Origin: Phytohabitans houttuyneae | GTDB lineage: Bacteria; Actinomycetota; Actinomycetes; Mycobacteriales; Micromonosporaceae | Length of the DNA: 64,000 nucleotides | Direction: 5' to 3' | NCBI RefSeq assembly: GCF_011764425.1 | Contig: NZ_BLPF01000001.1 | Location: 4,021,001 to 4,085,000, forward strand | Part shown: piece after piece, positions 14,553 through 55,881 of the stretch | Numbering within the stretch: position 1 is the first letter of the stretch | Layout of the letters: every line of letters begins with the position of its first letter | Notes under the pieces: model-generated | Seen by the model: only the letters and a program-made list of their open reading frames with translations | What the model was told of the DNA's origin: nothing | Database searches by the model: none | Made by a program: the position numbers and the translations under genes

Positions 14553-16736
14553 TCCGCCGCAGCAGCGGGAGGGTCGACGCGATGATCGCGAACGAGGCGA
14601 GCAGGCCGGCCGCGACCGCCAGGTAGTACGCCAAGCCGGGCGCGTGCAGCGTGTAGTCCAGCTGCGAGGTGAGGAAGAGCTGGGCGGCCACGAAGCCCAT
14701 GCCGATCGCCAGCAGGGCCACGAAAACCAGCGGCACGGCGCTCTCCAGCGTCACCACCCGGCGCAGCATCCCGATGGGCACGCCGGTGAGCCGGAGCAGG
14801 CTGAACGGCCGCTTGCGCTCGGTGATGCCGCCGGCCACGCCGACCGCCAGGCTGCACCCCGCGATCGCGAGGCTCGCGACGATCACCACGTTGGCCAGCT
14901 GCTGCCACTGCACGAGCGTGCGCCGGAAGTCGCTCTCGTAGTCGGCGACCGTTGCGGGTGAGCGGTTGACCTCCGGGAAGGCGGCTTCCAGCACCGTGCG
15001 CGATCGTTCAACGGCCGTCGCCGACCCGTCCGTGGCCACCACGACCGAGAGCAACGGCAGCTTTTCGACGCTCGCCGCGTCGACGGGCGCCGGCGCCCAG
15101 ACCGGTGGCTCGTTGGAGGCGCGGCGCGGGCCGAGCAGGTCGTGCCACACGTACGCGACCTCGGCACCGGGCGCGCACCGGCCGAGCTCCGGCGAGCGGG
15201 CGAGGTCGGCGCACGGCACCAGGCCGGGCAGCCAGTCCGGTCGGCTCGGCTCGTGCTCCGGGTTTGCGTAGACCGGGTGGACGGCACCGACCCCGGGTAT
15301 CGACGCCAGCTCGGCGGGGATCCGCGCCTTGCTCCCACCGGCGCCGCCCTTCGTGTCGAAGGACTGGACGAGCGCGCTGCTCAGCACCGAACCAGTACGC
15401 GGCTCGCCCCGCTCCGCCACGATCGTGGTCATCACGCCCGTGGCGACGCTGGTGACGAACAGGGCCACGGCGAGCCCGCTGACCGCGCGGAAGCCGGCGT
15501 GCGGGTTGTCCGCCAGCCGCCGCCCGGCGATCAGCGCCGCACCGCGGCGGGCCCGCGCGGCCAGCAGCCGCGACCCGACCAGGGTCAGCCACGGACCGGC
15601 CACCACCAGCCCGACCATGATCATCACGAAGCCGGACATGTACGCGATGAGCTGCCCATTCGTCGAGCTCGGCTGCCGGCCGACGAAGTAGAGAAGCTCC
15701 GCGACCCCGGCCGCGAGCAGGACAAGGCGCCAGGCCCGCGGCGGGCTGGGCGTGACGCGCCGGGTAACGCCCAGCGGTGAGATCTGCACCCGGCGCAGCG
15801 CGAGCCGCGCCACCACCGCCGCGGCCAGCGGGACGCCGACCACGACCGGCACGATGTCGAGCAGGCCGAGCGAGAGGTCGCCGCCAAAGAAGCGCTCGCC
15901 GGTGAACGGGATCTGCGCGATCGCCGGCCGGAACGCGAAGAACAACGCGATGCCGGCGAGGGTGCCCGCCACCGCGGCGACGGTCGACTCCACCGCGGAG
16001 ATCACCGAGACCTGCCGGGGTGTCGCACCGACCAGGCGCATCGCGGCGAAGCGCTGCTCCCGCCGGGCAGCGGCAAGTCGGGTCGCCGTGCCGATCAGGA
16101 TCAGCACCGGCACGATCAGGGCTCCCGCCACGATCGACAGCACCAGGCTCATGCCGTCGGCACCGATGCCGATCACACAGCGGTCGCAGTCGCTCGGGTC
16201 GGTGGTCATGATGCTGGCCACGCGGTCGGCGCTCGACATCCCCGAGAGCTCGTCGGGCGTGCGGCCCACCACGATCAGCAGCGAGTCGGGCGAGGGCAGC
16301 GCGCTGTCGCCGATCTTGCCGACGCGGCTGCCCGGGTATCGATCGGCCAGCTCGGACGGCGGGTGTGACCGCAGCAGGTCGCCGAGTGCGGGCGACACGT
16401 AGTACTCCCCGGGGCGGGCAGCCGCGGAATGCCGGGCGGCACCGGCGAGTCGGGCCCGGTGGCCGCGATGTCGAGCCGGGCGATCCGCTGCGCCGCGAAG
16501 TAGTCGTCGCGCAGCACCCACCAGCTTGGGTTGGCCGCCTTCGGCCCGGCAGTCTCTCCGACCAGGCCGCTGTTGAGCCACGCGTACCGCTGGTTTTGCG
16601 CGCCGACCGCGTTGATGCCCGCGAGCGCGGTGAGCAGCAGGCCCACCCCGAGCGCCACCGCCGCCGAGATGATGGCCAGCCGGACGATCGCCTCCCGGCC
16701 TGTGGCCAGGGCGAGGCGCAGGCCGAACCGGATCAT
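14521..16736 (-). pseudogene. MacB/FtsX-type ABC transporter permease, one-base frameshift
   Basis: Large ABC permease, two FtsX domains. Two overlapping frames together encode one protein of 738 residues: the first from ATG 16736 (MIRFGLRLALATGRE) to about 16410, the second from there to 14521. Sense resumes at EYYVSPALGDLL if a single base is added to the CCCCGGGG run at 16407-16414; the total length then is an exact multiple of three. Ten or so TMS; FtsX domains around 235-370 (RLAAARREQRFAAMRLVGA) and 610-735. Stop/start ATGA overlap with the ATPase gene upstream. A sequencing error is more likely than decay because the rest of both frames is intact. Exports an unknown substrate, possibly a lipid, peptide or antibiotic. 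Confidence 0.82.
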
Positions 16737-17422
16737 GACAGCACCCGCTCCGGCGCGAGGGCGGCGACCTTGCCGTCGCGGACCATCACGTGGCGGTCCG
16801 CATACGCCGCGACGCGTGCCTCGTGGGTGACCAGCACGACCGTGGTGCCGTGCTCGCGCGCGGCGCCGACCATCTGGTCCATCACTTGCTCGCCGGTGAG
16901 CGAGTCGAGCGAGCCGGTCGGCTCGTCGGCAAACAACACCTTCGGGCTGGTCACCAGCCCACGGGCCAGAGCCACCCGCTGCGCCTGCCCACCGGAGAGC
17001 TCTCCGGAGCGCCGGCGCTCGAGCCCGTCGAGCCCCAGCCGGCCGAACCACGGGCGGGCCTGGCGAAGCGCCGCCTCCCGCCGCACGCCGCCGAGCAGCA
17101 GCGGGAGAGCGACGTTTTCCTCCGCGGTCAGCTCTGGCACGAGCTGACCGAACTGGAAGACGAAGCCGAAGCTGTCCCGGCGCAGCGCGCTGCGGCCCGC
17201 CTCGTCCAGCGTGTCCACCCGGCGGCCGTCGAAGTGGATCTCGCCCTCGTCGGGCACGAGGATGCCGGCCAGGCAGTGCAGCAGCGTCGACTTTCCGGAG
17301 CCGCTCGGGCCCATGATGGCCAGGATCTCGCCCGGCGCGACCGCCACGGTGGCTCCCCGCAGCGCCGGCGTCTGGCCGAACGACCGCATGACGTCGCGGG
17401 CCTCGATCATCACGTCGGACAT
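16733..17422 (-). CDS. ABC transporter ATP-binding protein (MacB/LolD-like)
   Basis: Nucleotide-binding subunit of 229 residues for the FtsX-type permease that follows. Walker A GPSGSGKST near 39-47, Q-loop FQFGQL, signature LSGGQAQRVALARG, Walker B VLFADEPTGSLD, and the H-loop VTHEA are all intact. ATG 17422 lies in GTGATG, so an alternative GTG start at 17425 overlaps the PadR stop; AGGTGG serves as RBS. Order PadR - ATPase - permease on one strand with overlapping stops and starts makes a three-gene operon. The MacB/LolD type of ATPase drives mechanotransmission-style export rather than classical import. Confidence 0.93.
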   Translation of the reverse strand: MSDVMIEARDVMRSFGQTPALRGATVAVAPGEILAIMGPSGSGKSTLLHCLAGILVPDEGEIHFDGRRVDTLDEAGRSALRRDSFGFVFQFGQLVPELTAEENVALPLLLGGVRREAALRQARPWFGRLGLDGLERRRSGELSGGQAQRVALARGLVTSPKVLFADEPTGSLDSLTGEQVMDQMVGAAREHGTTVVLVTHEARVAAYADRHVMVRDGKVAALAPERVLS

Positions 17423-17946
17423 CACTTCACCACCTCGGCGGCAAGGGCGTCGAGCCGGGCGACGGTCGTGTCGATCCAGCGGAGGTCGGCCTCCAGGTGA
17501 AAGAGGCCGTGATCGGCGAGCAGCCCGTCGACGAGGCTGCCGCTGCGCCGGATCTCGGTCAGCTGGCGCATCCGCTCGAGGTGGGCGCCGCGCTGAATGT
17601 CGAGGTATTCACTAGCGGGGCGCCCGAGCATCAGCGCGAGCACCACCTTGCTGAAGAGCACCGACTGGAGGTGGGGCTCCGCCTCCAGCGGCTGGACAAG
17701 CCACGCGTCGAACTCTGTCGCCCCCGCCTCGGTGATCACGTAGCGCTTGCGCTCGGGGCCGACGCCCGGCTGCACCTCGCTGATCACCACTTTGCCGTCC
17801 CGCGCGAGGCGCCCGAGAGTGGCATACACCTGGCCGAAGGGCAGCGGGCGCCCACGGCCGAAATAGGCGTCGTAGTCGCGCTTGAGGTCGTATCCGTGGC
17901 TGGGCTCGCGCTCCAGCAGGCCGAGGAGGGTCAAGGGAACGCTCAT
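17422..17946 (-). CDS. PadR family transcriptional regulator
   Basis: Winged-helix repressor of 174 residues. The PadR DNA-binding domain spans about 5-80 (LTLLGLLEREPSHGYDLKRDY, then GQVYATLGRLARDGKV and ERKRYVITEAG), followed by a C-terminal dimerisation region of the Vir_act_alpha_C type (about 95-174, LQSVLFSKVVLALMLGRPASE). First gene of the operon with the MacB-like ABC exporter, and preceded by a palindromic site at 17968-17986, so it probably represses its own operon until a drug or other ligand binds, as is known for PadR-linked exporters. Confidence 0.92.
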   Translation of the reverse strand: MSVPLTLLGLLEREPSHGYDLKRDYDAYFGRGRPLPFGQVYATLGRLARDGKVVISEVQPGVGPERKRYVITEAGATEFDAWLVQPLEAEPHLQSVLFSKVVLALMLGRPASEYLDIQRGAHLERMRQLTEIRRSGSLVDGLLADHGLFHLEADLRWIDTTVARLDALAAEVVK

Positions 17947-17967
17947 GCCAGGAAGCGTACCCTGAGC

Positions 17968-17986
17968 GTATACCTCGCGTATATAC
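17968..17986. promoter_or_regulatory. PadR operator candidate, GTATA-N9-TATAC
   Basis: Dyad GTATACCTCGCGTATATAC starts 22 bp upstream of the PadR start codon and overlaps the likely -10 region (TATACC/TATATA). PadR repressors typically bind AT-rich dyads of this type in the promoter of their own operon. Confidence 0.6.
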
Positions 17987-18013
17987 CCCGGCGTACATGC
18001 GGGGAACTGGGCT

Positions 18014-18964
18014 TCAGCCTATGAACTCCGCCGCGAACCGCTCGATCTGCTCCACGCTCGTCCCGTCCTCGAACCCGATGATCAGCTCCTGCACGCCCGC
18101 TGCCGCGAAGGCCGCGATCCGCTCGCGGACGGTTTCGACGGTGCCGACAAGGCCGTACGAGGCGACGTCGCCCGGGTAGGCGAACTCGATGCCCGGCGGC
18201 ACCAGCGCCCGCGCCTCGTCGTCGCTGTCGCGGATTATGCAGAGCGTCGTGGCGGTACGGCGGATGCTGTCGTAGTCGCGCCCGAGCTCGTCACAGTGCC
18301 GGCGCAGGATCGCGTACTTGCGAGCGAGGCCGTCCGGCGACTCCATCATGTTGCAGGCGTCGGCGTACTCGGCGACCAGCCGCAGCGTCACCTTCTCGCC
18401 CCCGCCCGCGATCATCAGCGGGATGTGCGGCGCCTGCACGCCCTTGGGCTGGTTGATCGCTCCCCGCACCCGGTAGTAACGCCCCTCGAAGGTGGCCTCC
18501 TTCTCGCTCCACAGCTGCTGGATCACCTGTACCGCCTCGCCGAGCTTGCGCAGCCGGTCGCCCGCGGTACCGAAGTCGTAGCCGTACCCGACGTAGTCCG
18601 GTTCGTACCAGCCGGCACCGATCCCGAAGCTGAACCGGCCGTGCGAGATCACGTCGACGGTCGACGCGAGCTTCGCCTGTAGCGCGGGATTCCGGTACCC
18701 GTTGCCGGTGACCAGCTGCCCGAGCCGGACCTGGGAGGTCTCCCGGGCCAGCGCGGTGATCACCGACCACGCCTCGAAGACGAAGTCCTGCGAAGGCGGG
18801 ATCGTCACGAGGTGGTCCGGCGCCCACAGCGTGTGATAGCCGAGCGGATCGGCTGCCTGAGCCACCCGGACCACCGACTCGAACGCCTCGACCGGGTCCG
18901 TCACCTGCGCGAACTCGTGTCCGAACCCGGTGGGGAGAAAGATGCTGAACGAGACCGACACCAT
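18014..18964 (-). CDS. LLM class F420-dependent oxidoreductase
   Basis: Luciferase-like TIM-barrel oxidoreductase of 316 residues that would use reduced F420 (or FMN). Motifs: SIFLPTGFGHEF at the N-terminus, LWAPDHL, RLGQLVTGNGYRNPALQAK, and RFSFGIGAGWYEPDY, the usual order of the bacterial luciferase superfamily; IMIAGGGE-type phosphate loop appears as LMIAGGGEKVTLRLV. Substrate unknown. Divergent from the Fgd gene, separated by 137 bp, so the two F420 enzymes share a regulatory region; Fgd could supply the F420H2 used here. Confidence 0.88.
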   Translation of the reverse strand: MVSVSFSIFLPTGFGHEFAQVTDPVEAFESVVRVAQAADPLGYHTLWAPDHLVTIPPSQDFVFEAWSVITALARETSQVRLGQLVTGNGYRNPALQAKLASTVDVISHGRFSFGIGAGWYEPDYVGYGYDFGTAGDRLRKLGEAVQVIQQLWSEKEATFEGRYYRVRGAINQPKGVQAPHIPLMIAGGGEKVTLRLVAEYADACNMMESPDGLARKYAILRRHCDELGRDYDSIRRTATTLCIIRDSDDEARALVPPGIEFAYPGDVASYGLVGTVETVRERIAAFAAAGVQELIIGFEDGTSVEQIERFAAEFIG

Positions 18965-19101
18965 GATCGTCCTTTCTGGGCGTGGCCGGCGGGAGCGCCG
19001 TACGGTTCAGGAGTGGTGACCCGGCCGCGGCCGCAAAGGAGTCGCTCCGATTCCTCCGGCGCGAAAGGGTGGTCAGAACCAGCGACGAGGAAGGGACGGC
19101 A

Positions 19102-20106
19102 ATGGGCCTCACGATCGGCTACAAGGCGTCGGCGGAGCAGTTCGGGCCACGGCAGCTCGTCGAGTACGCCGTGCGCGCCGAGGAGGTCGGCCTGGACAGC
19201 GTCCTTGTGTCGGACCACTTCCTGCCCTGGCGGCACGAGGGCGGGCACGCGCCGTTCGCGCTGTCGTGGATGGCGGCGGTCGGCGAGCGGACCCGCCGGG
19301 TGCGGATCGGCACGAGCGTGCTCACGCCGACGTTCCGGTACAACCCCGCGGTGATCGCCCAGGCGTTCGCGACGATGGCGCTGCTCTACGAAAACCGGAT
19401 CATGCTTGGCGTGGGCACCGGCGAGGCGCTGAACGAGATCGCGGTGTCCGGCCTGCAGTGGCCGGAGTTCAAGGAGCGCTTCGCGCGGCTGCGGGAGGCG
19501 GTGCGGCTGATCCGCGAGCTGTGGACCAAGGACGAGGTCAACTTCGACGGCGACTACTACAAGCTGGTCAACGCGGTGATCTACGACCGCCCCGAGCGGC
19601 CGGCGCCCATCTACGTCGCAGCTGGCGGCCCGCTTGTCGCGAAGTACGCCGGCCGCTCCGGCGACGGGTTCATCTGCACCTCCGGCAAGGGCATGGACCT
19701 GTACACCGAGAAGCTGATGCCCGCGGTGGCCGAGGGCGCGGCGGCGGCTGGCCGCGACGCGGCGCAGATCGACAAGATGATCGAGATCAAGCTGTCGTAC
19801 GACCGCGACCACGACGCCGCGCTCGAAAACACCCGCTTCTGGGCGCCGCTGTCGCTGACCGCCGAGCAGAAGCACACGGTCGACACCGCTCTGGAGATGG
19901 AGCGCCTCGCCGACGAGCTGCCGATCGAGCAGGTCGCCAAGCGGTGGATCGTCGCGTCCGACCCGGACGAGGCGCTCGCACAGATCAAGCCGTACGTGGA
20001 CGCCGGCCTCAACCACCTGGTCTTCCACGGACCCGGGCATGACCAGGAGCGCTTCCTGACCCAGTTCGGCGAGGATCTCCTGCCTCGGCTGCGCGCCCTA
20101 GGCTGA
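19102..20106 (+). CDS. fgd: F420-dependent glucose-6-phosphate dehydrogenase
   Basis: Oxidises glucose 6-phosphate to 6-phosphogluconolactone while reducing coenzyme F420, the main source of F420H2 in actinobacteria. Length 334 matches mycobacterial Fgd1 (336), and characteristic stretches are shared: [26 protein letters not shown] (with the catalytic His near 39), [33 protein letters not shown] (catalytic Glu near 108), [20 protein letters not shown] and [16 protein letters not shown]. Start ATG 19102 follows GAGGAAGGGA; the frame opens upstream without an RBS. Divergent from an LLM oxidoreductase and 4 bp ahead of an alpha/beta hydrolase, probably cotranscribed. Confidence 0.93.
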
Positions 20107-20110
20107 GCGC

Positions 20111-20941
20111 GTGGAGATCGATCTGACCCTCCCCGGCGGTGGCCGGCTGCACGCGTACGACACCGGGGGCGACGGCCGGCTCGCGATCCTCTGGCACCAC
20201 GGCACGCCCAACATCGGCGCGCCGCCCAAGCCACTCTTCGCCGCCGCCGACCGGCTCGGCATCCGCTGGATCTCGTACGACCGCCCCGGCTACGGCGGTT
20301 CGCCACGCATTCCGGGTCGCACCGTGGGTGACGCCGCGACCTGGGCCGCCGCGATCGCCGACGCGCTCGGCATCGAACGCTTCGCGGTGATGGGCCACTC
20401 GGGCGGTGGCACACACGCCCTGGCCACCGGCGCGCTGCTGCCCGACCGCGTTGTCGCCGTGGTGAGCGCGGCCGGCCTGGCCCCACCCGATGCCGAAGGG
20501 CTCGACTGGTGGGCGGGCATGGGCGACTCCGGCATCGCCGCACTCTCCGCGGCCAAGGAGGGCCTGGTCGCCAAGGAGGCTTTCGAGACCTCCGGCACCG
20601 AGTACGACCACCAGTTCACGCCCGCCGACTTCGCCGCCTTCGAAAGCGGGTGGTCATGGTTCAGCGAGGTGGTCGGCCCGGCCGAGGCGGGCGGCCCGGG
20701 TGGGCACGTGGACGACGACATCGCGTACGTCACGCCGTGGGGCTGCGACCCTGCCCAGATCACCGCGCCCGTGCTCCTCATCCACGGTGGGCTCGACAAG
20801 GTGGTGCCCAGCACTCACGCGGAGTGGCTGGCCAAGCGGTGCCCGCGTGCCGAGCTGCGGCTCGTACCCGACGGGGCGCACATATCGGTCATGACCTCGG
20901 GCGAGGCCGCGCTGGAGTGGATCCGGACAGCAGCTTCGTGA
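20111..20941 (+). CDS. Alpha/beta hydrolase
   Basis: Cytoplasmic esterase/lipase-like protein of 276 residues. Nucleophile elbow VMGHSGGGTHA puts Ser at about 97, oxyanion motif HHGTP at about 29-33, acid Asp in IHGGLDKVVP and His in VPDGAHISVM near 257, so the triad is complete. GTG start 20111 lies five bases after the Fgd stop with GCGCG spacing and no strong RBS, suggesting translational coupling. Its last 53 bp overlap the convergent TetR gene. Substrate unknown; linkage to F420 metabolism is positional only. Confidence 0.87.
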   Translation: MEIDLTLPGGGRLHAYDTGGDGRLAILWHHGTPNIGAPPKPLFAAADRLGIRWISYDRPGYGGSPRIPGRTVGDAATWAAAIADALGIERFAVMGHSGGGTHALATGALLPDRVVAVVSAAGLAPPDAEGLDWWAGMGDSGIAALSAAKEGLVAKEAFETSGTEYDHQFTPADFAAFESGWSWFSEVVGPAEAGGPGGHVDDDIAYVTPWGCDPAQITAPVLLIHGGLDKVVPSTHAEWLAKRCPRAELRLVPDGAHISVMTSGEAALEWIRTAAS

Positions 20942-21775: not shown

Positions 21776-21790
21776 GATCGCCTCCATCTA

Positions 21791-21816
21791 GTACGCCCGT
21801 ACATGTACAAGCGTAC
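21791..21816. promoter_or_regulatory. 26-bp palindrome upstream of SMR gene (TetR operator)
   Basis: The sequence GTACGC-CC-GTACATGTAC-AA-GCGTAC is symmetric over 26 bp except for two positions and contains four GTAC units at regular spacing. It lies 16 bp upstream of the SMR start codon, the position of a repressor site. The 10-bp core GTACATGTAC also occurs in the palindrome at 36877-36892. Confidence 0.65.
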
Positions 21817-28127: not shown

Positions 28128-29125
28128 ATGCGACTGCGGTACCCCAGTCTGCTCCTCACCACGCTCCTCGCGGCCGCCGCGTGCACGGACTCGCCGGACG
28201 AGCCTCGTACCACCGAATCTGCCCCCGGATCCCCGGCGCCGAGCGTGACCGCGGCCCTGACCTGGCAGCGCCTCGCCGCCGCACCCTCGGCCCGCACCGA
28301 GGTCGCGGCCGCGACCACCGGGTCCCAGGTCTACGTGGTGGGTGGCTACCGCGCCGACGGCGGCACGGTCGCGACCGTCGAGGTCTTCGACACCGCTACC
28401 GGCAAGTGGACGGCGGGGCCGGACCTGCCGGTGGCCGTCAACCACGCGATGGCGGCGACCGTCGACAACGAGGTGTACGTCTTCGGCGGCTTCCTGGCCA
28501 ACGGCGACCCGGGCAAGGACGCGTTCAAGCTGGAGGGTGGGGCGTGGCGGCCGATCGCGCCGCTGCCCAGGAGCGGGCGGCGGGCACGGCCGTGGCGCAG
28601 AGCGGCAAGGTGTACGTGGCGGGTGGGCTCAACGCGGGCGGGCTGGCACGCCAGATGCTCGTGTACGAGCCGGCGACCAACCTGTGGACCAACGCGCCCG
28701 GCCCACCCACGCCCCGGGAGCACCTGGGCGGCGCCGGGTTCGGCGGCAAGGTCTACACGGTCGGCGGGCGCGCCGGCGGGCAGGGCAACTTCACCGCGTT
28801 CGAGTCGTTCGACCCCACCACCAACCAGTGGACGGTGCTGCCCGACCTGCCGACCCGCCGCGGTGGGCTGGCCGCGGCCGCGACCTGCTCAGGGCAGGTG
28901 GTGGCGGTCGGCGGCGAGGCGGAGGCGACGTTTGAGGAGGCCGAAGCCTTCGACGTCAAGGCCGGGACGTGGTCCTCGCTTCCGCCGATGCTCACGCCCC
29001 GCCACGGCCTTGGGGTGATCGCGATGGGCACGACGCTGTACACGTTCGCCGGCGGCCCGAAGCCCGGCCTGCACGTCGCCGATTCGGCCGAATCGATGGA
29101 TTTGGCGCCACTGGGATCCTGCTAG
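28128..29125 (+). pseudogene. Kelch-repeat lipoprotein, one-base frameshift
   Basis: Exported beta-propeller protein. From ATG 28128 a lipoprotein signal (LLLTTLLAAAAC, lipid Cys at about 18) leads into Kelch repeats (VYVVGGYRADGG, VYVFGGFLANG). At about 28566-28569 the frame is lost; Kelch repeats resume immediately in the next frame (KVYVAGGLNAGGLA, KVYTVGGRAGGQGNF, VAVGGEAEATFEEA, LYTFAGGPKPG) to the stop at 29125. One added C in the CCC run restores 332 residues and six blades. Probably a consensus error or recent mutation. Would sit on the outer face of the membrane; ligand unknown. Confidence 0.85.
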
Positions 29126-32078: not shown

Positions 32079-34447
32079 TCAGCGCGGGCCGCCGATCCCC
32101 TTGTCGAGGCCGGCGCGACGCAGCGCCTCGGCCATCGCACCCTGCGGCTCCCGAGCCGGCTGAGCTGGGCGTTTGCCGCCCTGCCTGGCCGGCCGGTCGC
32201 GACGCCCCTGGCCGCCGGGGCGCCATTGCCTCCGGCCTTCGCCCTGTCGGCGCCACCTTCGTCGTCGAGGCGCAGCGTCAGCGAGATCCGCTTGCGCGGC
32301 ACGTCGACGTCGAGCACCTTCACCCGGACGATGTCGCCCGGCTTTACCACGTCACGGGGGTCCTTGACGAACGTCTTCGACATCGCCGACACGTGCACCA
32401 ACCCGTCCTGGTGGACGCCCACGTCGACGAAGGCGCCGAACGCCGCCACGTTGGTGACCACGCCCTCCAGCACCATGCCGGGCTGGAGGTCGGCGAGCTT
32501 TTCGACCCCTTCGGCGAACGATGCGGTCTTGAACGCGGGCCGCGGGTCACGACCCGGCTTTTCCAGCTCCTTGAGGATGTCGGTGACGGTGGGCAGGCCG
32601 AACGTGTCGTCGACGAACTCCACCGGCTTCAGCGCCCTGAGCACCGGACCGTTGCCAATCAGCGACGGAAGGTCACTCTTGGTCGCGCCGAGGATCCGGC
32701 GGACGACGGGGTACGCCTCCGGGTGCACGCTTGACGCGTCCAGCGGGTCGTCGCCGCCCGGGATGCGCAGGAAGCCGGCGCACTGCTCAAACGCCTTGGG
32801 CCCGAGCCGCGGCACGTCCTTGAGCGCCTTGCGGCTGCGGAACGGCCCGTTGCTGTCGCGGTGCATCACGATGCTCGCGGCCAGCCCTTCGCCGATGCCG
32901 GAGACCCGGGTCAGCAGCGGCGCGGAGGCGGTGTTGACGTCGACGCCCACCGCGTTGACGCAGTCTTCGACCACCGCGTCGAGCGAGCGGGAGAGCTTCA
33001 CCTCCGAAAGGTCGTGCTGGTACTGCCCGACGCCGATCGACTTTGGATCGATCTTCACAAGCTCGGCGAGCGGGTCCTGGAGCCGGCGGGCGATCGAGAC
33101 CGCGCCACGTAGCGAGACGTTGAGCTCGGGCAGCTCCTGCGACGCGTAGGCCGAGGCGGAGTAGACCGACGCGCCCGCCTCGGAGACCACGATCTTCGTC
33201 AGCTTCAGCTCGGGGTGGCGAGAGATCAGGTCACCGGCGAGCTTGTCGGTCTCGCGCGAGGCCGTGCCGTTGCCGATCGCGATCAGCTCGACCTTGTGCA
33301 CGGCAGCCAGCTTGGCCAGCGTGGCGATCGACTCGTCCCACCGGTGCGCCGGCACGTGCGGATAGATCGTGTCGGTCGCGACCACCTTGCCGGTCGCGTC
33401 CACCACGGCGACCTTCACACCGGTGCGGAAGCCGGGGTCGAGGCCCATCGTCGGGCGGGTGCCGGCGGGCGCGGCCAGCAGCAGGTCACGCAGGTTGGCC
33501 GCGAAGACCCGGACCGCCTCCTCCTCCGCCGCCTGCCACAGCCGGCTGCGGATGTTGGCGTCGAGGTGGATGAGGATCCGGACCCGCCAAGCGGACCGCA
33601 CGGTGTCGAGCAGCCACCGGTCGGCTGGCCGTCCCTTGTCGGCGATGCCGAAGTGCCCGGCGATACGCGGCTCGTACGAGTTGGGCACCTCGAGGTCGTC
33701 GGGCTCCGGCGTGAGGTCGAGGACCTCTTCCTTTTCACCGCGGAACATCGCCAGGATCCGGTGCGACGGCAGCTTGGCGAACGGCTCGGCGAAATCGAAG
33801 TAGTCGGAGAACTTGGCGCCCTCGTCCTGCTTGCCGTCACGCACCTTGGAGACGAGCCGGCCACGCGACCACATCTGCTCGCGGAGCGCACCGATGAGGT
33901 CCGCGTCTTCGGCGAACTTTTCGATGAGGATGTGCCGCGCCCCTTCGAGCGCCGCGGCCGCGTCGGCCACACCCTTTTCGGGGTCGGCGTATCCGGCGGC
34001 CACGCTGAGCGGCTCCTGCGTCGGGTCACCGAGCAGCAGCTCGGCCAGCGGCTCCAGCCCGGCCTCGCGGGCGATCATCGCCTTGGTCCGCCGCTTCGGC
34101 TTGAAGGGCAGGTAGATGTCCTCGAGCCGCGCCTTGGAGTCGGCCGCCATGATCTGCGCCTCGAGCGCCTCGTCGAGCTTGCCCTGGCTGCGGATCGACT
34201 CAAGGATCGCGGTGCGCCGCTCCTCCATCTCGCGCAGGTAGCGAAGCCGCTCCTCCAGCGTGCGCAGCTGCGCGTCGTCGAGCGCGCCGGTGGCCTCCTT
34301 GCGGTATCGCGCGATGAACGGCACGGTCGCCCCGCCGTCCAGCAGGTCGACGGCGGCCGCCACCTGCCGCTCCCGCACGCCTAGCTCGTCGGCGATCCGG
34401 TGCGTCGTCGAGATCTGCTGGGTCGCCGGGGACAGATCAGAAGTCAC
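32079..34447 (-). CDS. tex: Tex-family RNA-binding transcription accessory protein, 3' frameshift
   Basis: Tex/YqgF-S1 protein. N-terminal Tex domain (1-190), YqgF/RNase H-like fold about 325-450 ([19 protein letters not shown]), helix-hairpin-helix region about 490-560 ([14 protein letters not shown]), and C-terminal S1 domain about 645-715 ([21 protein letters not shown]). The uninterrupted frame continues to 31928 with nonsense and would overlap the sigma factor. Adding one base to the CCCC run at 32219-32222 restores the typical Tex tail, which ends [18 protein letters not shown] with a stop at 32079, 789 residues in all. Nucleic-acid binding, role in transcription/RNA stability; essential in some bacteria. 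Start ATG 34447. Confidence 0.9.
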
Positions 34448-34976: not shown

Positions 34977-34989
34977 CCGCGTCGCCTCC

Positions 34990-35871
34990 TCACGTGATTC
35001 GCTGCAGGGCCTTCTCCCGGCGCTCCGCCACCCGGGAGCCGGACTCGCGGCGGGCCATGCGGCGCAACACTATCGGCGCGATGACCAGGCCGAGAATGGC
35101 CCACGCGCCCAACACGCCGACCGTCTCCAGGTGGCGCCACGACTCTCCGATCTCGACGCCGGCCATGCTGTCGGGGAGCAGCGCCGACCGCATGCCCAGC
35201 CCCAGCCAGTAGATGGGGAAGACCTGCGCGATCCACTGGAGCCACACCGGAAAGTTGGTGATCGGGTAGAAGATGCCCGAGGTGGCGATCAGGCCCATCA
35301 GCGGCAGCATGATCATGCCCATGTTGCGCGGGTTGCCGACAAGCGAGCCGAAGACGGCGCCGATCGGCATCGTGGCGACCATGCCGAGGAGCACGACCCA
35401 GACCAGCGTGAGCCAGCTCGACGCGCCGCGCACGGAGAGGCCGTCCAGCAGGAAGAGGCCGGGCACGAGCTGCATGGCGAGGCTGATCACACCCATGCCG
35501 GCGACCAGAGTGATCTTGCCGACGAGGTAGCCGACCATCCCGTTCGGGATGGCCTTGGCGCGCAGCAGCGTGCCGTCTTCGCGGTCGACAGTGAGTGCCA
35601 TGGCCATCGTGACCAGGCCGCCGAACGCGATGCTCATGCCCAGCGCGCTCGGCATCGTGCGCGAGCTGAGCGAAAAGCTCGTGCCCGGCACCGTCGCGTT
35701 GCGCATGAAGAACAGGACGACCAGCAGCAGGATCGCGGGAAAGAAGTAGTTCCACAGATCCTGGCCATTGGTGAACGTGTGCCGCAGCTCGATGCGTCCG
35801 CGGGCGAGGCCGGCGCGGGCCGCGCGCATCGCGGGCTGGCCGAGCGACAGGGCCGCCGGGATCGTGGTCAT
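34990..35871 (-). CDS. ABC-2 type transporter permease
   Basis: Membrane subunit of 293 residues with six to seven hydrophobic segments (YFFPAILLLVVLFFM, ALGMSIAFGGLVTMAMAL, WLTLVWVVLLGMVATMPIG, MIMLPLMGLIATSGIFYP, LGAWAILGLVIAPIVL). The SGIFYPITNFPVWLQWIAQVFPIYW stretch (given here only by its ends SGIFYP and VFPIYW) is the ABC-2 signature after TMS5. ATG 35871 overlaps the ATPase stop (ATGA). Forms an exporter with the ATPase encoded upstream; drug/antibiotic or lipid export is the usual role of this pair. Confidence 0.9.
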   Translation of the reverse strand: MTTIPAALSLGQPAMRAARAGLARGRIELRHTFTNGQDLWNYFFPAILLLVVLFFMRNATVPGTSFSLSSRTMPSALGMSIAFGGLVTMAMALTVDREDGTLLRAKAIPNGMVGYLVGKITLVAGMGVISLAMQLVPGLFLLDGLSVRGASSWLTLVWVVLLGMVATMPIGAVFGSLVGNPRNMGMIMLPLMGLIATSGIFYPITNFPVWLQWIAQVFPIYWLGLGMRSALLPDSMAGVEIGESWRHLETVGVLGAWAILGLVIAPIVLRRMARRESGSRVAERREKALQRIT

Positions 35872-36839
35872 CGCGTGACCTCCTCGAACGCGCGCAGGGC
35901 GGCGACGCTGCGCCCCGACTCGTACTCCCGGACGAAGGCCATGTAGGTGTCCTCCATGCTGGCGCGACGCACCTCGAGGTCGGCGATGGCCTCGCCGTAC
36001 TGCTCGAAGAGCTGGCGCACGAAAGCGGTGGCGTCGGCGGTGGAGTGGACGAACCGCTCGCCGTCGCGGCTCCACCGCACCTCGGCGTCGGCGGCGACAC
36101 GGCGCGATAGCTGGTCGGGCGAGCCGTCCGCGATGATCGAGCCGCCGGCCAGGATGAGGATGCGGTCGGCGAGCTTTTCCGCCTCGTCCAGGTCGTGCGT
36201 GGTCAGCAGGATCGTGGTGTCGTCGATGTCGGAGAGCCGGTGCACGAGGTCGTGAAACTCGCGGCGGGCCTCCGGGTCGAAGCCCGCCGTCGGCTCGTCG
36301 AGGAAGAGCAGCTCCGGCCGGCCGACGATGCCGATCGCCACGTCGAGGCGGCGGCGCTGGCCACCGGAGAGCTGCCCCACCCGCTTGCTCGCATGTGGAG
36401 TGAGCCCGACCGCGTCGATCAGGTCGTCGACGTCCCACGGGCGGTGGATCCTCGGCGTGGAATACGCCGCGTAGTAGACCCCCAGGTGGGCGAGGAGCTC
36501 GCGGACCCGCCACTTGCCGTGGTCACGCCACGACTGGAGGACAACGCCAAGCCGGGCTCGCCAGCGCTCGTCGCCGTGCCCGGGGTCGACGCCAAGGACC
36601 CGCACCTCACCGGCCGAACGGATCCGGAAGCCCTCCAGGATCTCGATCGTGGTGGTCTTGCCCGCCCCGTTGGGCCCCAGCAGGGCCAGCACCTCACCGC
36701 GGTGCGCGGTGAAGGAGACACCTTTGAGTACATCGTTCGTCCCGTACCGCATGCGGAGGTTACGGACCTCGATCGCGGCAAGGTCATCGAGCGGCTCCAC
36801 GGCCGCCGCAGGTGCGCGCAGCTGCCTTACGACGGTCAT
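35868..36839 (-). CDS. ABC-2 type transporter ATP-binding protein (DrrA-like)
   Basis: ATPase of 323 residues. Walker A GPNGAGKTT near 55-63, Q-loop VVLQSWRDHGKW, signature LSGGQRRRLDVAIG, Walker B LLFLDEPTAGFDPEAR, switch TTHDLDEAEKLADR. The extra C-terminal domain (about 245-323) is typical of DrrA/NodI-type export ATPases. First gene of the operon with ABC-2 permease and XRE regulator; a perfect 16-bp palindrome lies 38 bp upstream of its start. Export function is secure, substrate is not. Confidence 0.92.
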   Translation of the reverse strand: MTVVRQLRAPAAAVEPLDDLAAIEVRNLRMRYGTNDVLKGVSFTAHRGEVLALLGPNGAGKTTTIEILEGFRIRSAGEVRVLGVDPGHGDERWRARLGVVLQSWRDHGKWRVRELLAHLGVYYAAYSTPRIHRPWDVDDLIDAVGLTPHASKRVGQLSGGQRRRLDVAIGIVGRPELLFLDEPTAGFDPEARREFHDLVHRLSDIDDTTILLTTHDLDEAEKLADRILILAGGSIIADGSPDQLSRRVAADAEVRWSRDGERFVHSTADATAFVRQLFEQYGEAIADLEVRRASMEDTYMAFVREYESGRSVAALRAFEEVTR

Positions 36840-47450: not shown

Positions 47451-47476
47451 GCCACCCGCACACACCGGAGGAACTG

Positions 47477-47659: not shown

Positions 47660-47664
47660 CCGGC

Positions 47665-48991: not shown

Positions 48992-49013
48992 CGATTAGGA
49001 AGGAGGCGGCGCC

Positions 49014-50081: not shown

Positions 50082-50098
50082 CCCACCGGCCCCGCTGA

Positions 50099-50119
50099 CC
50101 CCGCGCCCTTGGCGCGGGG
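50099..50119 (+). terminator. Hairpin terminator of the tad operon
   Basis: CCCCGCGCC-CTT-GGCGCGGGG, a perfect 9-bp stem with a 3-base loop 17 bp after the LysM gene stop. No T-tract, normal for high-GC actinobacteria. It would also serve the convergent DUF1707 gene. Confidence 0.8.
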
Positions 50120-50185
50120 CGGCGTCGAGACCGCCCACAGCCCTCGATCGGCGAGGCGCGCGGGGCACGGACCGGTGGCCGGGGG

Positions 50186-50626
50186 TCAGCGGCGGATCGG
50201 GCGGCGAGACTGCGCCTCCAGCACCGCGCGTACCGGGATCACGTGTCCCAGCAGGCCCACGCCCCAGCCGAGGATCGGCCAGACGGGCCAGAAGTACCAC
50301 GAGCCGCTGCTCATGCCCACGACCGCCCAGATGCCGAGCATCAGGAGCGAGCCGGCCACATATGCCGCCACGTGTGCCCGCATGCCGAGCCGCGCGCCGG
50401 CGGCGTGCCGCTCGCGGCGGCGATCACGGGCGCGGCCGCGCACCCAGGTCGCGGGCAGGTCGGCGACCAGGGCCTCGAGCTCACCCCGGGTGCGCGCCGA
50501 GTAGGCGGCCGTCGACCGCTCGCCGAACTCCTCGGTCTCCAGATAGCCCGCCGCGAGGGCGTCGCTCAGCAGCGCCGCCACCGACTCACGCTCGGCCGTG
50601 CCCACACGTTCCAGTTCGCTAGCCAT
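50186..50626 (-). CDS. DUF1707 / 2TM domain protein
   Basis: Membrane protein of 146 residues. ATG 50626 is preferred because the DUF1707 domain begins right after it: RVGTAERESVAALLSDALAAGYL, then EEFGERSTAAYSARTRGELE and ALVADLP (about 5-60), the classical SHOCT-like actinobacterial domain. A basic linker (WVRGRARDRRRERHAAG) leads to two TMS (MRAHVAAYVAGSLLMLGIWAV, YFWPVWPILGWGVGLLGHV) of the 2TM type. Function unknown; proteins of this architecture are thought to be regulatory or stress-linked. Confidence 0.85.
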   Translation of the reverse strand: MASELERVGTAERESVAALLSDALAAGYLETEEFGERSTAAYSARTRGELEALVADLPATWVRGRARDRRRERHAAGARLGMRAHVAAYVAGSLLMLGIWAVVGMSSGSWYFWPVWPILGWGVGLLGHVIPVRAVLEAQSRRPIRR

Positions 50627-50701
50627 GCGAACAACTGTGCCAGCCAGTCTTGTCACTGTCAAGATGTGGGCGCGCGAAGTGTCCTCGGATGGACGTGGCT
50701 T

Positions 50702-51523
50702 CTACAACAGGACGCGGGAGAAGCTCGGCAGCGGCTGTCCCGACAGCCCGCCGGCATACCTCGTGCGCAGCCCGACCAGGCGAATCGCGCCTACCAGCAG
50801 CAGGCTGGCCACGATGCCGTCCAACCAGTAGTGGTTGGCAGTGATCACCACCACGCTCACGGTCAGCACCGGGTGGGCCAGCGCCAACCAACGCCACTTG
50901 CTCGTGGTCACCCGGATCAGCGCGATCGCGACCAGCAGCGCCCAGCCGACGTGCAGCGAGGGCATCGCGGCGAACTGGTTGGCCACGCCGTCGGTGCTGT
51001 TGTCCGGGTACGCCGACGGGCCGGTGAGGATCATCGTGTCGACCATGCCGAAGCTGTTGACAAGCCGCGGGGGCGCGAGCGGAAAGATGACGTGCACGAA
51101 GAGCGCGGCCGCCGTGAGGACCGCCATCTCGGTGCGCATGCGCAGGTAGTCCGGCCGGTGGCGGATCCACAGCCACACCATCGCCAAGAGCGTGCCGGGG
51201 AAGTGGACGCCGACGTAGTAGAGGTTGGCCAGGCGTGCCGTCGCACCCCAGGACAGCGCCCACTCCTGGATCATTGCCTCACTGGGCAGGCGAAGTGCCC
51301 GTTCGACCTCCCACACCCAGTCCGCATGACGGAAAGCCACACCCATTTGGCCGTCGGCAAGATGACGAATCCCCTGGTAAATAACCATCATCGAGGCAAT
51401 CAAGATCACCTCGATGACGAGTTCACGCAGGCGTGCCGCCCGGGACCGAGTCGGTCCCAGCCTCCCTGGTGGTGCTTTCTGCGGACTCGCGGCAGGCCGC
51501 GTGACCTCTTCCGTGATTGCCAT
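50702..51523 (-). CDS. PAP2 superfamily phosphatase (inositolphosphotransferase-like)
   Basis: Membrane phosphatase or phosphotransferase of 273 residues; ATG 51523 has GGTGGGGGA upstream. Six TMS; the PAP2 active site is present in late motifs FAAMPSLHVGWALLVAI (His of motif 2) and VITANHYWLDGIVAS (His-Asp of motif 3), of the PAP2_3/AUR1-like type used in phosphatidylinositol or lipid phosphate transfer. An Arg-rich N-terminus is cytoplasmic. Acts on lipid phosphates at the outer membrane face; substrate unknown. No operon partner. Confidence 0.85.
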   Translation of the reverse strand: MAITEEVTRPAASPQKAPPGRLGPTRSRAARLRELVIEVILIASMMVIYQGIRHLADGQMGVAFRHADWVWEVERALRLPSEAMIQEWALSWGATARLANLYYVGVHFPGTLLAMVWLWIRHRPDYLRMRTEMAVLTAAALFVHVIFPLAPPRLVNSFGMVDTMILTGPSAYPDNSTDGVANQFAAMPSLHVGWALLVAIALIRVTTSKWRWLALAHPVLTVSVVVITANHYWLDGIVASLLLVGAIRLVGLRTRYAGGLSGQPLPSFSRVLL

Positions 51524-51755
51524 CGCCGTCCCCCACCGAGATTTCATCCACGGTTTACGCAATTCAACGCTAAGTGAAATCTCTATACCAGAACAGCGAT
51601 TATCCGTGTGACCCCACGCACAACGACACACCTCAAACTCGTTCCGGACGATCGTAGACGGGTTGCGCACGTCCCGACGTCCCTTAAGGCTTCCCGAGCA
51701 CGTGGAGCCTCATGCGGGTGGCCCGCGAAATGCGAAGAGAGCCCCGAAACGACGG

Positions 51756-51785
51756 CAGGGCGCCCCGCCGAAGCGGGACGCCCTG
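51756..51785 (-). terminator. Hairpin terminator of the ScyD/E-like gene
   Basis: CAGGGCGCCCCGC-CGAA-GCGGGACGCCCTG: a 13-bp stem with a tetraloop and one C/A mismatch, 19 bp after the ScyD/E-like stop. The same GGGCGCCCC/GGGACGCCC architecture terminates the LacI gene (54824). The remaining intergenic bases 51524-51755 hold nothing recognised. Confidence 0.75.
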
Positions 51786-51803
51786 AGCGCGACGAGCGAC
51801 AGG

Positions 51804-52946
51804 TCAGGCGCGGATGCGCAGGACCTCGCCGACGCCAGCGGCGGTTGACTTGTTCGTCACGTAGATCGAGCCGTCCCCGCCGATCGCCAGGCCGCCCGGG
51901 AAGGTCAGCTTCCCTTTCGCGAGTTCTGTCCGCTTGGCACCTCGTTTGACGTCCACCCGGATCAACGCGCCATTCGGGTCACCGGCGAACAGGCCCTTCT
52001 TGGAGATCTGCAGCACAAGCAGGCGTCCCCAGCGGTCGAAGGCGATGTCGACGATGTTCGTGAAGCCGGTCGCGTACACCTTGGGCGCCTTGCCCGGCAC
52101 GATCCGCCACACCCGCGCCGCCCCCATCGCGAACGGGAAGCCGGTCAGCTCACCCACGTAGAGCGCGCCGTCGGGACCCCGGGCCACGGTCGTCGGTACC
52201 GACTGCGCGGTCATCGTGGACCCTGGCGGCGGGAACGGCGACGGGACGGTCAGGTCGGGGAAGACCGCCACCGTGGAGACCTTGCCGCGCCAGCTGACCT
52301 TGAGCAGGTCGTTGCCGCCGGCGTCGGTGGCGTACGCCCCGAACGGCGTGGCCAGGATGCCGTACGGGTTCGAGTCGACCTCGCCCTTGTCCGGGTTCTT
52401 CGCGGTCTCGTACGCGTTGAGGTCGGCGATCGGCTTGACCTTGGCCGCCCGCGCGCTCGGGTGCAAGCCGACCACGTGGCCCATCAACCGCGCGCCTGGG
52501 CCGAGGAAGTCGCGCGTCTCCAGGTTGAACGCGCCGCCGATCGTGGCCACGAGCCCGGGGCCGGCCGGTGAGATCTTGTGGAGCCCGATCGCGGAACTGC
52601 CGTCCTCCGCAGTGGCGAGCGAGGGCAGGCCGGTGATCACGCGGTGCGGCTTCGCACCCCGGTCGAGCCGCGGCGGGATCGCGGTCAGCGCGGCGGTGGC
52701 GCCGAGGCACTGCCGGTCCCCCTCGGGGCCTTCGATGCAGGGGCCGTCTCCGCCCCGGCCGGCTTCGGCGACGTACAGCCATCCGTGCCTACCCACCGCG
52801 ATGCCACGCGGGTTGTCCAACCCACGCGCGATGACGGTCACCGACGGCTTGCCCTCGGCACTGGTGGCGGCGGACGCGGCGGGCGCGCCGGCAAACGCCA
52901 GCACTGCGGCCACAGCACCGGCTGGGAGAACGTGACTAAGCCTCAT
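51804..52946 (-). CDS. Secreted ScyD/ScyE-family (beta-propeller) protein
   Basis: Secreted protein of 380 residues; ATG 52946 starts the signal peptide (LSHVLPAGAVAAVLAFAGAP, cut after ASA near 27). The mature part has repeated motifs NPRGIAVGRHGWLYVAEAG, PDGALYVGELTGFPF, FDRWGRLLVLQISKKG, GDGSIYVTNKSTAAG, typical of SMP-30/NHL-type six-blade propellers and of the ScyD/ScyE family known from scytonemin loci. In actinobacteria these are widespread secreted proteins without a proven role. Monocistronic, with its own terminator. Confidence 0.85.
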   Translation of the reverse strand: MRLSHVLPAGAVAAVLAFAGAPAASAATSAEGKPSVTVIARGLDNPRGIAVGRHGWLYVAEAGRGGDGPCIEGPEGDRQCLGATAALTAIPPRLDRGAKPHRVITGLPSLATAEDGSSAIGLHKISPAGPGLVATIGGAFNLETRDFLGPGARLMGHVVGLHPSARAAKVKPIADLNAYETAKNPDKGEVDSNPYGILATPFGAYATDAGGNDLLKVSWRGKVSTVAVFPDLTVPSPFPPPGSTMTAQSVPTTVARGPDGALYVGELTGFPFAMGAARVWRIVPGKAPKVYATGFTNIVDIAFDRWGRLLVLQISKKGLFAGDPNGALIRVDVKRGAKRTELAKGKLTFPGGLAIGGDGSIYVTNKSTAAGVGEVLRIRA

Positions 52947-53036
52947 GAACACCCCGTTCCTCGTGCAACCGAACAAGGGGAATCATGCTGGCCTCGACCA
53001 CGCTATGTGGTCAAAACGCTGAAAACGGATAAAGGG

Positions 53037-53085
53037 GTTTGTGAGCGGTCGCCACTGTCCCGGCGGCGGCAAACCACTCACAAAC
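53037..53085. repeat. Inverted repeat GTTTGTGAG ... CTCACAAAC
   Basis: Arms 53037-53045 and 53077-53085 are perfect 9-bp inverted copies separated by 31 bp, extendable by GCGG/CCAC with a mismatch. They lie between the GH13 stop (53099) and the ScyD/E start (52946). It may terminate the GH13 transcript or be a regulator site. Confidence 0.45.
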
Positions 53086-53098
53086 CGCTCAAGGGGGC

Positions 53099-54682
53099 CT
53101 AGCTGTCCAGGCGCAGCCAGGCCGCGGTGTCGACGGGCAGCGAGTCGCCGTCGAGGGGCCCGCTCGCGAGCAGCACCTCCTCGTGGGCGGGCAGCGGGAC
53201 CGCCGCCGTCGATAGGTTGAGGACGCAGGCAAAGCCGGGCTCGCGCGCGAAGGCGAGGACGCCGTCGGGCGCCGGCATCCAGCGCATACCACCATCGCCG
53301 AGGGCGGGCTCCGCGCGCCGGATCCGCAGCGCGGTCCGATAAAGCTCCAACATGGAGTACGGATCACCCGACTGCGCCTGTACCGTGCGATCCTTCCAAT
53401 CTGGCGGTTGGGGCAACCACGGTGACGCCGCGGCGCCCACGGGGCTGAACCCGAACGGCGGCTCATTTCCGGACCAGGGCAGCGGCACCCGGCAGCCGTC
53501 CCGCCCGGGGTCGGTGTGGCCGGAGCGGTGCCACATCGGGTCCTGGCGCAGCTCGTGCGGGATGTCCTCGACCTCCCAGAGGCCCAGTTCCTCGCCCTGG
53601 TAGACGTACGCCGAGCCGGGCAGCGCCAGCGTGAGCAGCGCGGCCGCCCGCGCCCGCACCCCACCGAGCTGCAGGTCCGCCTCCACGCCCTCGCGCTTGC
53701 TCGCGAAGCTGAACGAGCTGTCCAGCCGCCCGTACCGGGTCACATGCCTGGTCACGTCGTGGTTGGAGAGCACCCACGTGGCCGCCGCACCCACCGGGGC
53801 GTGCGCGCTCAGCGTCGCGTCCACACACTCGCGCATCGCCGCCGCGTCCCACGGGCAGCAGAGAAAGTCGAAGTTGAAGGCCGTGTGCAGCTCGTCGGGG
53901 CGCAGATATTTGGCGAAGCGCTCCCGATCGGGCAGCCACACCTCCCCGATCAGGACCCGGTCACCGGGGTAGCTGTCCGCGATCCGCCGCCACGACCGGT
54001 AGATCTCGTGCACGCCGTCCTGGTCGGTGTACGCCTCGATCCCGTCGAGGGCCGGGTTTTTCACCGGCAGCGCCGCCGAGTCGATGCGGATGCCGTCGAC
54101 CCCGCGGTCGAGCCAGAACCGCAGGATGTCCTCGAACTCCTCGCGCACCCGCGGGTTGGCCCAGTTGAAGTCGGGCTGCTCCGGCGCGAAGAGATGCAGG
54201 TACCACTCGCCGTCGCCGACCCGGGTCCACGCCGGGCCACCGAAGATCGAGCGCAGGTCGGTCGGCGGCTCCTCGCCGTCCGGCCCGCGGCCGGGACGAA
54301 ACCAGAAGAGCTCCCGCTCCGGCCCGCCCGCCAGCGCCGCCTCAAACCACGGATGCGCGGTGGAGCAGTGGTTGGGGACGATGTCGATGATGATCCGGAT
54401 GTCCCGCTCGTGCGCCTCAGCGACCAGCGCCTCGGCCTCGTCGAGCGTGCCGAAGACGGGGTCGATGTCGCGGAAGTCGGCGACGTCGTAGCCGGCGTCG
54501 GCCATCGGAGACGGGTACCACGGGCTCAGCCACACCGCGTCCACACCCAGCTGGACCAGGTGGTCGAGGCGGGCGCGGACCCCGGCCAGGTCACCGACCC
54601 CGTCACCGTTTCCGTCGGCGAAGCTGCGCGGATAGACCTGGTAGATGACGGCGCTGCGCCACCAGTTGTCTCCTGTGGACAT
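53099..54682 (-). CDS. GH13 alpha-glucosidase / oligo-1,6-glucosidase-like
   Basis: Cytoplasmic glycoside hydrolase of 527 residues (ATG 54682, RBS GAGGGAA). Clan GH-H catalytic triad: nucleophile D201 in GVDGIRIDSA, acid/base E247 in LIGEVWL and transition-state stabiliser D309 in LSNHDVTRH; also DIVPNHCS (region I) and YQVYPRSFADGNGDG, the standard opening of alpha-glucosidase subfamilies. A C-terminal beta-sandwich is at about 440-527. It splits maltose or short isomalto-oligosaccharides into glucose. Directly upstream on the same strand is a LacI regulator, and CTTG/CAAG boxes lie at 54762, so it is probably sugar-induced through that regulator. Confidence 0.92.
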   Translation of the reverse strand: MSTGDNWWRSAVIYQVYPRSFADGNGDGVGDLAGVRARLDHLVQLGVDAVWLSPWYPSPMADAGYDVADFRDIDPVFGTLDEAEALVAEAHERDIRIIIDIVPNHCSTAHPWFEAALAGGPERELFWFRPGRGPDGEEPPTDLRSIFGGPAWTRVGDGEWYLHLFAPEQPDFNWANPRVREEFEDILRFWLDRGVDGIRIDSAALPVKNPALDGIEAYTDQDGVHEIYRSWRRIADSYPGDRVLIGEVWLPDRERFAKYLRPDELHTAFNFDFLCCPWDAAAMRECVDATLSAHAPVGAAATWVLSNHDVTRHVTRYGRLDSSFSFASKREGVEADLQLGGVRARAAALLTLALPGSAYVYQGEELGLWEVEDIPHELRQDPMWHRSGHTDPGRDGCRVPLPWSGNEPPFGFSPVGAAASPWLPQPPDWKDRTVQAQSGDPYSMLELYRTALRIRRAEPALGDGGMRWMPAPDGVLAFAREPGFACVLNLSTAAVPLPAHEEVLLASGPLDGDSLPVDTAAWLRLDS

Positions 54683-54761
54683 TCGTTCCCTCGACTCTGT
54701 CGTGGTGGTCTTCCAGACCTGCGCCTGCCGGGTTTCGTGGCGATGACGATACAAAGCCAAA

Positions 54762-54775
54762 CTTGAGTACGCAAG
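54762..54775. promoter_or_regulatory. LacI operator candidate upstream of GH13
   Basis: CTTGAGTACGCAAG, a dyad with CTTG and CAAG half-sites 80 bp upstream of the alpha-glucosidase start. It shares GCAAGAA with the site upstream of the LacI gene (55949-55965). Confidence 0.5.
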
Positions 54776-54823
54776 AATCCGACTAGTATCTGAAAGAACC
54801 GTGACACAATGCAGAAACAATCA

Positions 54824-54852
54824 GGGCGCCCCACCGGACAGGTGGGACGCCC
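54824..54852 (-). terminator. Hairpin terminator of the LacI gene
   Basis: GGGCGCCCCACC-GGACA-GGTGGGACGCCC forms a 12-bp stem with a C/A mismatch, 25 bp after the LacI stop. Same design as the terminator at 51756-51785. The GH13 gene therefore probably has its own promoter at 54690-54800. Confidence 0.75.
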
Positions 54853-54877
54853 CGAGAAGGGTCGAGTTTTCCGCGGG

Positions 54878-55881
54878 TCAGGTCCTGGGTGCCGGCGCGG
54901 TCGAGCCGCGCACCACGAGCTCGGGCTCGAAGAACAGCTCCTCCGACGGCACGCCGACCCCCTCCATCTGCTGCACGAGCAGGTCGACCACCGACTGGCC
55001 CATCGCCTCGATCGGCTGGCGGACGGTGGTCAGCGGCGGGTCGGTGCACGTCATGATCGCGGAGTCGTCGAAGCCCACGATCGACATATCCTGCGGCACC
55101 CGCTTGCCCAGACGCCGCACCGCACGCACGGCGCCGAGGGCGAGCACGTCGCTGGCGCAGAGGATGCCGGTGACCCCCGCTCGGCCAGCCGGGTGGCCGC
55201 GGGCCGCGCGCCCTCCATCGAGAAGCTCGCCCGCTCGACGTCGCAGGTCACGTCCGGGCTGCCCTTGGCTGCGGCCATGAGCGCGTCGAGCTTGCGGCGG
55301 GAGGGCACGTGGTCCTCCGGGCCGAGCAGCGCGCCGACCTTCTGGTGGCCGAGCGACACAAGGTGCGCGAACGCCTGCTCCACCGCCACCGCGTCGTCGG
55401 TGGAGACGCTCGGGAAGCCCAGCCCTTCGACACCGGCGTTCACCAGCACCGCCGGCAGCCCTCGCTCGCGCAGCGTGCGGTAGTGGTCGTGGGGCGCGTC
55501 GGCCATCGCGTAGTTGCCACCCGCGAAGATCACGCCGGACACCTGGTGCTCCAGCAGCATCTCCAGGAAGTCCGTCTCGGAGACACCGCCGATCGTGCGG
55601 GCGCAGAGGATCGGCGAGAGGCTGCGCTGCACCAGCGCACCGGTCACCGCCTCGGCCAGTGCCGGGAAGATCGGGTTTTGCAGCTCGGGCAGGACGAGGC
55701 CGACAAGCCTGGCGCGCTCACCGCGCAGCTTGGACGGCCGCTCGTAGCCGAGCACATCGAGCGCGGTCAACACCGCGGCGCGGGTCGCCTCAGACACGCC
55801 CTCGCGGCCGTTGAGCACGCGGCTCACGGTGGCCTCGCTGACCCCCGCCTTCTTGGCGACCTCGGTTAGGCGTCGTGTCAC
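54878..55881 (-). pseudogene. LacI family transcriptional regulator, one-base frameshift
   Basis: Sugar-responsive repressor. From GTG 55881 the LacI HTH is intact (LTEVAKKAGVSEATVSRVLN, residues 3-22) and the periplasmic-binding-like ligand domain runs to LAERG near 55175. Then the frame is lost; the remaining part (MSIVGFDDSAIMT, TVRQPIEAMGQSVVDLL, ending at 54878) continues in the next frame. One more G in the G5 run at 55170-55175 restores 334 residues, the family's usual length. Probably a consensus error. Likely controls the alpha-glucosidase gene next to it and itself through CTTGC boxes. Confidence 0.85.

Follow-up and report, generated by a model that had tools for sequence, protein, structure and literature searches.

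Frameshifts in four genes of a Phytohabitans houttuyneae assembly are most probably consensus errors

Introduction

In the window, i.e., the whole 64,000-nucleotide stretch analysed from the genome of the soil bacterium Phytohabitans houttuyneae, four genes each lack one base for a frame of whole codons: a MacB-type permease gene, a Kelch-repeat gene, tex and a LacI-family regulator gene. This raises the question of whether the genes are broken in the organism or only in its assembly. The first-pass annotation had placed the missing bases in C or G runs and proposed a systematic consensus deletion error rather than pseudogenes. All four disruptions were confirmed in the sequence, with the codon numbers that it had given (Table 1). 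That a one-base change closes each frame is built into such a claim and is not independent evidence for it.

Results

The four split genes

Not every detail of the original description was retained. The run coordinates were exact for the permease gene, while those of the Kelch, tex and LacI genes were displaced by up to four bases. The location in a C/G run held for the permease, Kelch and LacI genes, but at tex the alignment showed no simple run contraction.

Table 1. Features of the window with a one-base length difference at or beside the gene.
Gene	Position	Strand	Start-to-stop span (bases)	Codons if one base is added	Site
FtsX/MacB-type ABC permease, two frames	14521..16736	-	2216	739	break at CCCCGGGG 16407-16414
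Kelch-repeat gene, lipoprotein-like start, two frames	28128..29125	+	998	333	break at CCC 28566-28568
tex	32079..34447	-	2369	790	break near GGGG 32217-32220, in the variable linker past the S1 domain and before the conserved tail
LacI-family regulator, two frames	54878..55881	-	1004	335	break at CCCCC 55174-55178
ABC-2 permease	34990-36513				stop adjoins a spacer with +1 at 34987

A Pfam domain search was run separately on the pieces at either side of each break. The 3' piece of the permease gave an FtsX domain (2.3e-14) and its 107-aa 5' piece had no Pfam match; FtsX is the sole domain tested, so "MacB-like", the name carried over from the earlier annotation, is putative. Both pieces of the Kelch gene matched Kelch_1 (3.1e-17 and 2.2e-28), and its designation as a lipoprotein is a prediction from the appearance of the N-terminus only. 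The LacI gene showed a LacI domain in the 5' piece (1.1e-15) and Peripla_BP_3 in the 3' piece (1.7e-27). Tex_N, Tex central, YqgF, HHH and S1 domains were all found before the break in tex, in agreement with its membership of the Tex family.

An alignment-free hidden Markov model (HMM) of codon usage detected frame switches at 16411 (permease), 28564 (Kelch) and 55179 (LacI), and no other stop-free switch in the whole window. The tex site was missed since it is near the gene end, inside the zone removed by a 150-base filter.

Origin of the assembly and comparison set

The window's own genome (G000) comprises 11,342,817 bases in 5 contigs. In the accessible part of PMC7692728, a P. houttuyneae genome of 11.34 Mb in five scaffolds is reported from PacBio RSII reads assembled with Canu 1.4, together with those of P. 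flavus (9.61 Mb, one), P. suffuscus (10.15 Mb, one) and P. rumicis (10.71 Mb, three). The assembly is thus very probably that of P. houttuyneae NBRC 108639 from this project, a strain identity that we infer. Sizes and contig counts of the four type-strain genomes, all obtained with the same platform and assembler, fit G000 and G002-G004, and G002, G003 and G004 would correspond to P. suffuscus, P. flavus and P. rumicis, respectively. With 89%, G003 is listed as the least complete of the six genomes of the genus. The accessible methods of PMC7692728 name no polishing step, but since they defer to a previous publication for how the sequencing was done, one may have been applied. The words "frameshift" and "sequencing error" are absent from the main text in the part accessible, and a literature search combining Phytohabitans and frameshift found no paper.

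The comparison set was the syntenic DNA of five genomes of the same genus, G001-G005. Two of these, G001 (480 contigs) and G005 (100 contigs), served as controls, and their fragmentation suggests that they are short-read assemblies.

Relatives at the four sites

At the Kelch site, all five relatives are one base longer and four have one frame on both sides. In the fifth, G001, the 5' frame continues without a stop beyond the site as far as script coordinate 137124 and differs from the frame counted back from the stop, probably owing to a length change beside that stop. The LacI site could be aligned in four relatives, all except G001, and each of them has one base more there and an open frame. 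At the permease site, to which no stretch of G004 or G001 could be aligned, the frame is open in two of three aligned relatives (G003 and G005), and G002 has the identical break.

The tex site is the least clean of the four. Mapping across it gave one frame in three of five relatives, and in a genome search each of the five had an uninterrupted frame of 779-796 aa, against 842 aa in G000, where the reading runs on in the wrong frame. The break falls within an indel-rich linker, and whether the missing base belonged to a run is unclear from the alignment. A wider search for tex relatives returned no Phytohabitans record among the matches listed for the best 80 loci.

An open frame across a site is not the same as an intact gene, since relatives carry lesions of their own elsewhere in these genes: one-base deletions were found in Kelch of G002 and G003 and in LacI of G003, while G005 had none within any of the four genes. 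In the Kelch gene, the missing base falls at a different place in each of G000 (~28567), G002 (~28981) and G003 (~28710, all as window equivalents), so that three of the four project-matching assemblies have this gene broken.

The shared break in the permease gene and the pseudogene alternative

Orthologues with the same frameshift had been named beforehand as evidence against an error and, formally, the permease gene of G002 is such a case, the other aligned relatives being open there. It does not refute the error, because G002 groups with the open G003 and G005 apart from G000, because G002 itself corresponds to one of that project's assemblies, and because an A interrupts the C run in G003 and G005. 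The tree, built from 107,470 columns with G004 as the root, joined G002, G005 and G003 apart from G000 with 100% support, while the pairing of G002 with G005 had only 61%. Since G005 and G003 are open at the site yet grouped with G002, an inherited break would need reversals. The tree would require two events, and recurrent error is likelier than inheritance. The interrupting A also fits a run-length error in G000 and G002.

Substitutions were then considered by codon position. The third-position share in the permease gene was 0.58 in G000 and G005, 0.45 in G002 and 0.48 in G003, so that both broken copies resemble the open ones. Among substitutions private to G000 in the four genes, 48/61 before the breaks and 52/87 after them were at third positions. 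The latter figure comes mostly from the permease gene (42/76), as Kelch (6/6), LacI (3/3) and tex (1/2) contribute only 11 substitutions. Relaxed codon-position constraint after the breaks was therefore not found in these 87 substitutions. An ancestral permease pseudogene common to G000 and G002 was rejected on the tree and codon positions together.

That one or more of the four, most plausibly tex or the permease gene, are genuine recent pseudogenes is very unlikely. Inactivation that happened very recently would not yet show in the substitutions and so would escape the codon-position test, the permease break does recur in G002, and the tex break is past the last domain in a variable linker, where a real and tolerated frameshift affecting the tail alone is conceivable. 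Against this, the third-position bias is retained, inheritance of the permease break contradicts the tree, and the tex tail 3' of the break is conserved and in frame in all five relatives and is kept, in the other frame, in G000. The deletion rates and the broken single-copy essential genes described below also speak against it.

Rates of one-base deletions

The sample in which one-base deletions were counted comprised, for G000, 260 kb surrounding the window and 60 kb surrounding rpoB and, for the relatives, syntenic stretches of 236-300 kb and 20-60 kb, respectively. Bases covered by at least two other genomes amounted to 63-184 kb and 13-58 kb, the lowest values being those of G001. Only frame-shifting one-base deletions with a coding-type substitution phase on both sides were considered. 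Sites with fewer than two relatives, with too few mismatches or with a net size other than -1 were dropped, as were two rows (one of G000, one of G004) in which the gap was spread over 8 bases.

G000 had 8 deletions in 118.65 kb of coding-like sequence, G002 20 in 153.9 kb, G003 27 in 147.9 kb and G004 21 in 112.8 kb, whereas G005 had 0 in 145.65 kb and G001 1 in 45.6 kb (G000 vs. the two controls, p = 0.003). The single deletion of G001 is marginal, with a phase fit of 0.56 and an equal length in G000 and G002. The HMM gave a similar picture: stop-free frame switches numbered 14 in G000, 33 in G002, 25 in G003 and 19 in G004, in 281-310 kb of coding sequence, compared with 1 in 257 kb for G005 and 3 in 268 kb for G001. 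Per 100 kb of coding sequence these are 5.0, 11.0, 8.3 and 6.1 for the project-matching assemblies, 0.4 for G005 and 1.1 for G001, and the excess of G000 over the controls has p = 2.5e-4; the model was trained on G000 and G005 alone, which may favour low counts in G005. G005 is inside the clade of affected genomes and has no deletions, so the excess follows the platform and not the phylogeny, with the control platforms judged from assembly fragmentation.

Deletions outnumbered insertions, as expected of long-read error. In the four PacBio-matching genomes, coding frame-shifting events were 78 of -1 and 7 of +1 (76 deletions after the 8-base filter), and in the two controls 1 of -1 and 4 of +1. 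The location in homopolymers was also that of long-read error, the tex site being unclear in this respect: 73/76 deletions touched a C/G run of at least 3 bases (29% for random sites) and 47/76 one of at least 4 (6%), with the proviso that the aligner may place gaps beside runs. None of the 76 touched an A/T run of at least 3, and one of the eight G000 deletions (script coordinate 225830) was away from any C/G run. Each row is a genome at a site, so a shared break may count twice; 68/76 rows were private to one assembly and 8/76 were in genomes sharing the length with another.

Of the four window genes, the coding-phase test flagged LacI alone, as one of the eight G000 deletions. The comparison of alignment lengths found Kelch and LacI and missed the permease gene, whose break is common to G002, and tex, which has other indels nearby. 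Since the coding-phase test on the alignment picked out LacI only, the deletion rates are stronger evidence for this type of error than for any individual site.

The same counts bear on a further alternative, namely that the runs are programmed or phase-variable slippage sites and that the genes are expressed across the break. The breaks are at short G+C-rich runs and that of the permease recurs in two species, as slippage would have it. However, 68 of the 76 rows belong to one assembly alone, and no slippery sequence or repeat was found to be conserved among orthologues dependent on the shift, the aligned relatives reading through the same places except for the permease gene in G002. Runs of 3-5 bases are, to our knowledge, unusually short for phase variation. 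With the essential genes below also against it, slippage has a practically negligible probability. In a variant confined to the permease gene, the break would be real in both G000 and G002 and would have arisen twice, the run being a mutational or phase-variable hot spot that switches the transporter off; this is extremely unlikely.

Split essential genes

In a whole-genome search of G000, rpoC, rpsL and rplV were each found only as two frame-split pieces at one place, with no further match to any of them in the genome. These loci are outside the window, in the rpoB region of contig C1 (rpoC ~3450755, rpsL ~3446547, rplV ~3438694). A growing cell needs the RpoC, RpsL and RplV proteins. Therefore, breaks of this class in the G000 assembly must be largely false, the only copies of these genes being split as long-read error predicts. 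The three genes are each in one piece in G005 and G001, which argues against slippage.

The sister assemblies are affected likewise, with rpsL split in G003 and rpoC in G004. The rpoB gene has one frame in G000 and is split over three open frames of 139, 386 and 822 aa in G003 (C1:8270729-8273984). At one place in rpoC, both G000 and G004 are one base short, in different neighbouring runs: the C run is shorter in G000 and the G run in G004, and G002 has the longer form of both. By this alignment, the two shortfalls would fit independent errors.

Two side observations were made in these regions. Similar breaks occur on C1 of G000 at ~3421641, in an ABC-F-like ATPase gene, and at ~3415242, in a thiD-like kinase gene, both named from the look of the translation. 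In addition, the same single base is deleted from one CCC of the rpoB region in both G002 (script coordinate 27821) and G003 (26763), G000, G004 and G005 being one base longer there; a context-specific recurrent consensus error is possible there.

Other length differences in the window

Thirteen sites of the window had a non-triplet length difference for G000. Only 34987 and LacI passed the coding test; the other 11, among them Kelch and 3309, failed it, and five of the 11 (37120, 48987, 53091, 57443 and 59513) were absent from the comparison of alignment lengths. A coding lesion at 34987-34988, one base longer than in three relatives, was rejected: the site is in the short spacer between the ABC-2 permease stop and the beginning of a small HTH regulator gene, and is probably natural length variation of a gene junction. 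Two CCCC runs, at 3309-3311 and at 17988 (the latter outside the 13 sites), are one base shorter in G000 than in three relatives, which may reflect additional consensus errors or natural variation. Other differences were +1 at 2331, 7021, 54838 and 60610.

Discussion

The four frameshifts are almost certainly an ordinary sequencing artefact and not a real biological feature, and with high confidence they are consensus errors in genes that are most likely intact in the living organism. The true base count at each single site is an inference from sequence comparison. A consensus from PacBio RSII continuous long reads and Canu 1.4 would tend to lose one base in short C/G runs. The systematic error proposed at first is supported by the excess of deletions and frame switches in the four project-matching assemblies over the two fragmented congeners, by the association with C/G runs, by the broken sole copies of rpoC, rpsL and rplV, and by the third-position bias that was kept after the breaks. 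The same excess, far above both controls, stands against genuine pseudogenes.

The breaks matter only as a caution on this genome and its sister genomes, not as biology. Extrapolation from 2.8% of the genome gives ~420 false breaks in G000 by the HMM, with the control background subtracted, to ~670 by alignment without subtraction, i.e., very roughly 400-700. Sampled rates were higher in the three sister assemblies G002, G003 and G004. Until the four type strains are resequenced, their records are consequently not to be trusted for counting pseudogenes, absent core genes or split biosynthetic genes.

The error does not differ in kind from that described in the accessible part of the Kastor paper (PMC12007338), in which genes are divided between two frames by short homopolymer deletions. 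That part also cites a PacBio-only (RSII) human assembly as indel-rich and reports few frameshifted genes in its short-read assembly. The nanopore assembly described there erred most at A/T runs, whereas none of the 76 deletions found here touched such a run of at least 3 bases, a lack for which the G+C content of the window, 71%, may be the reason.
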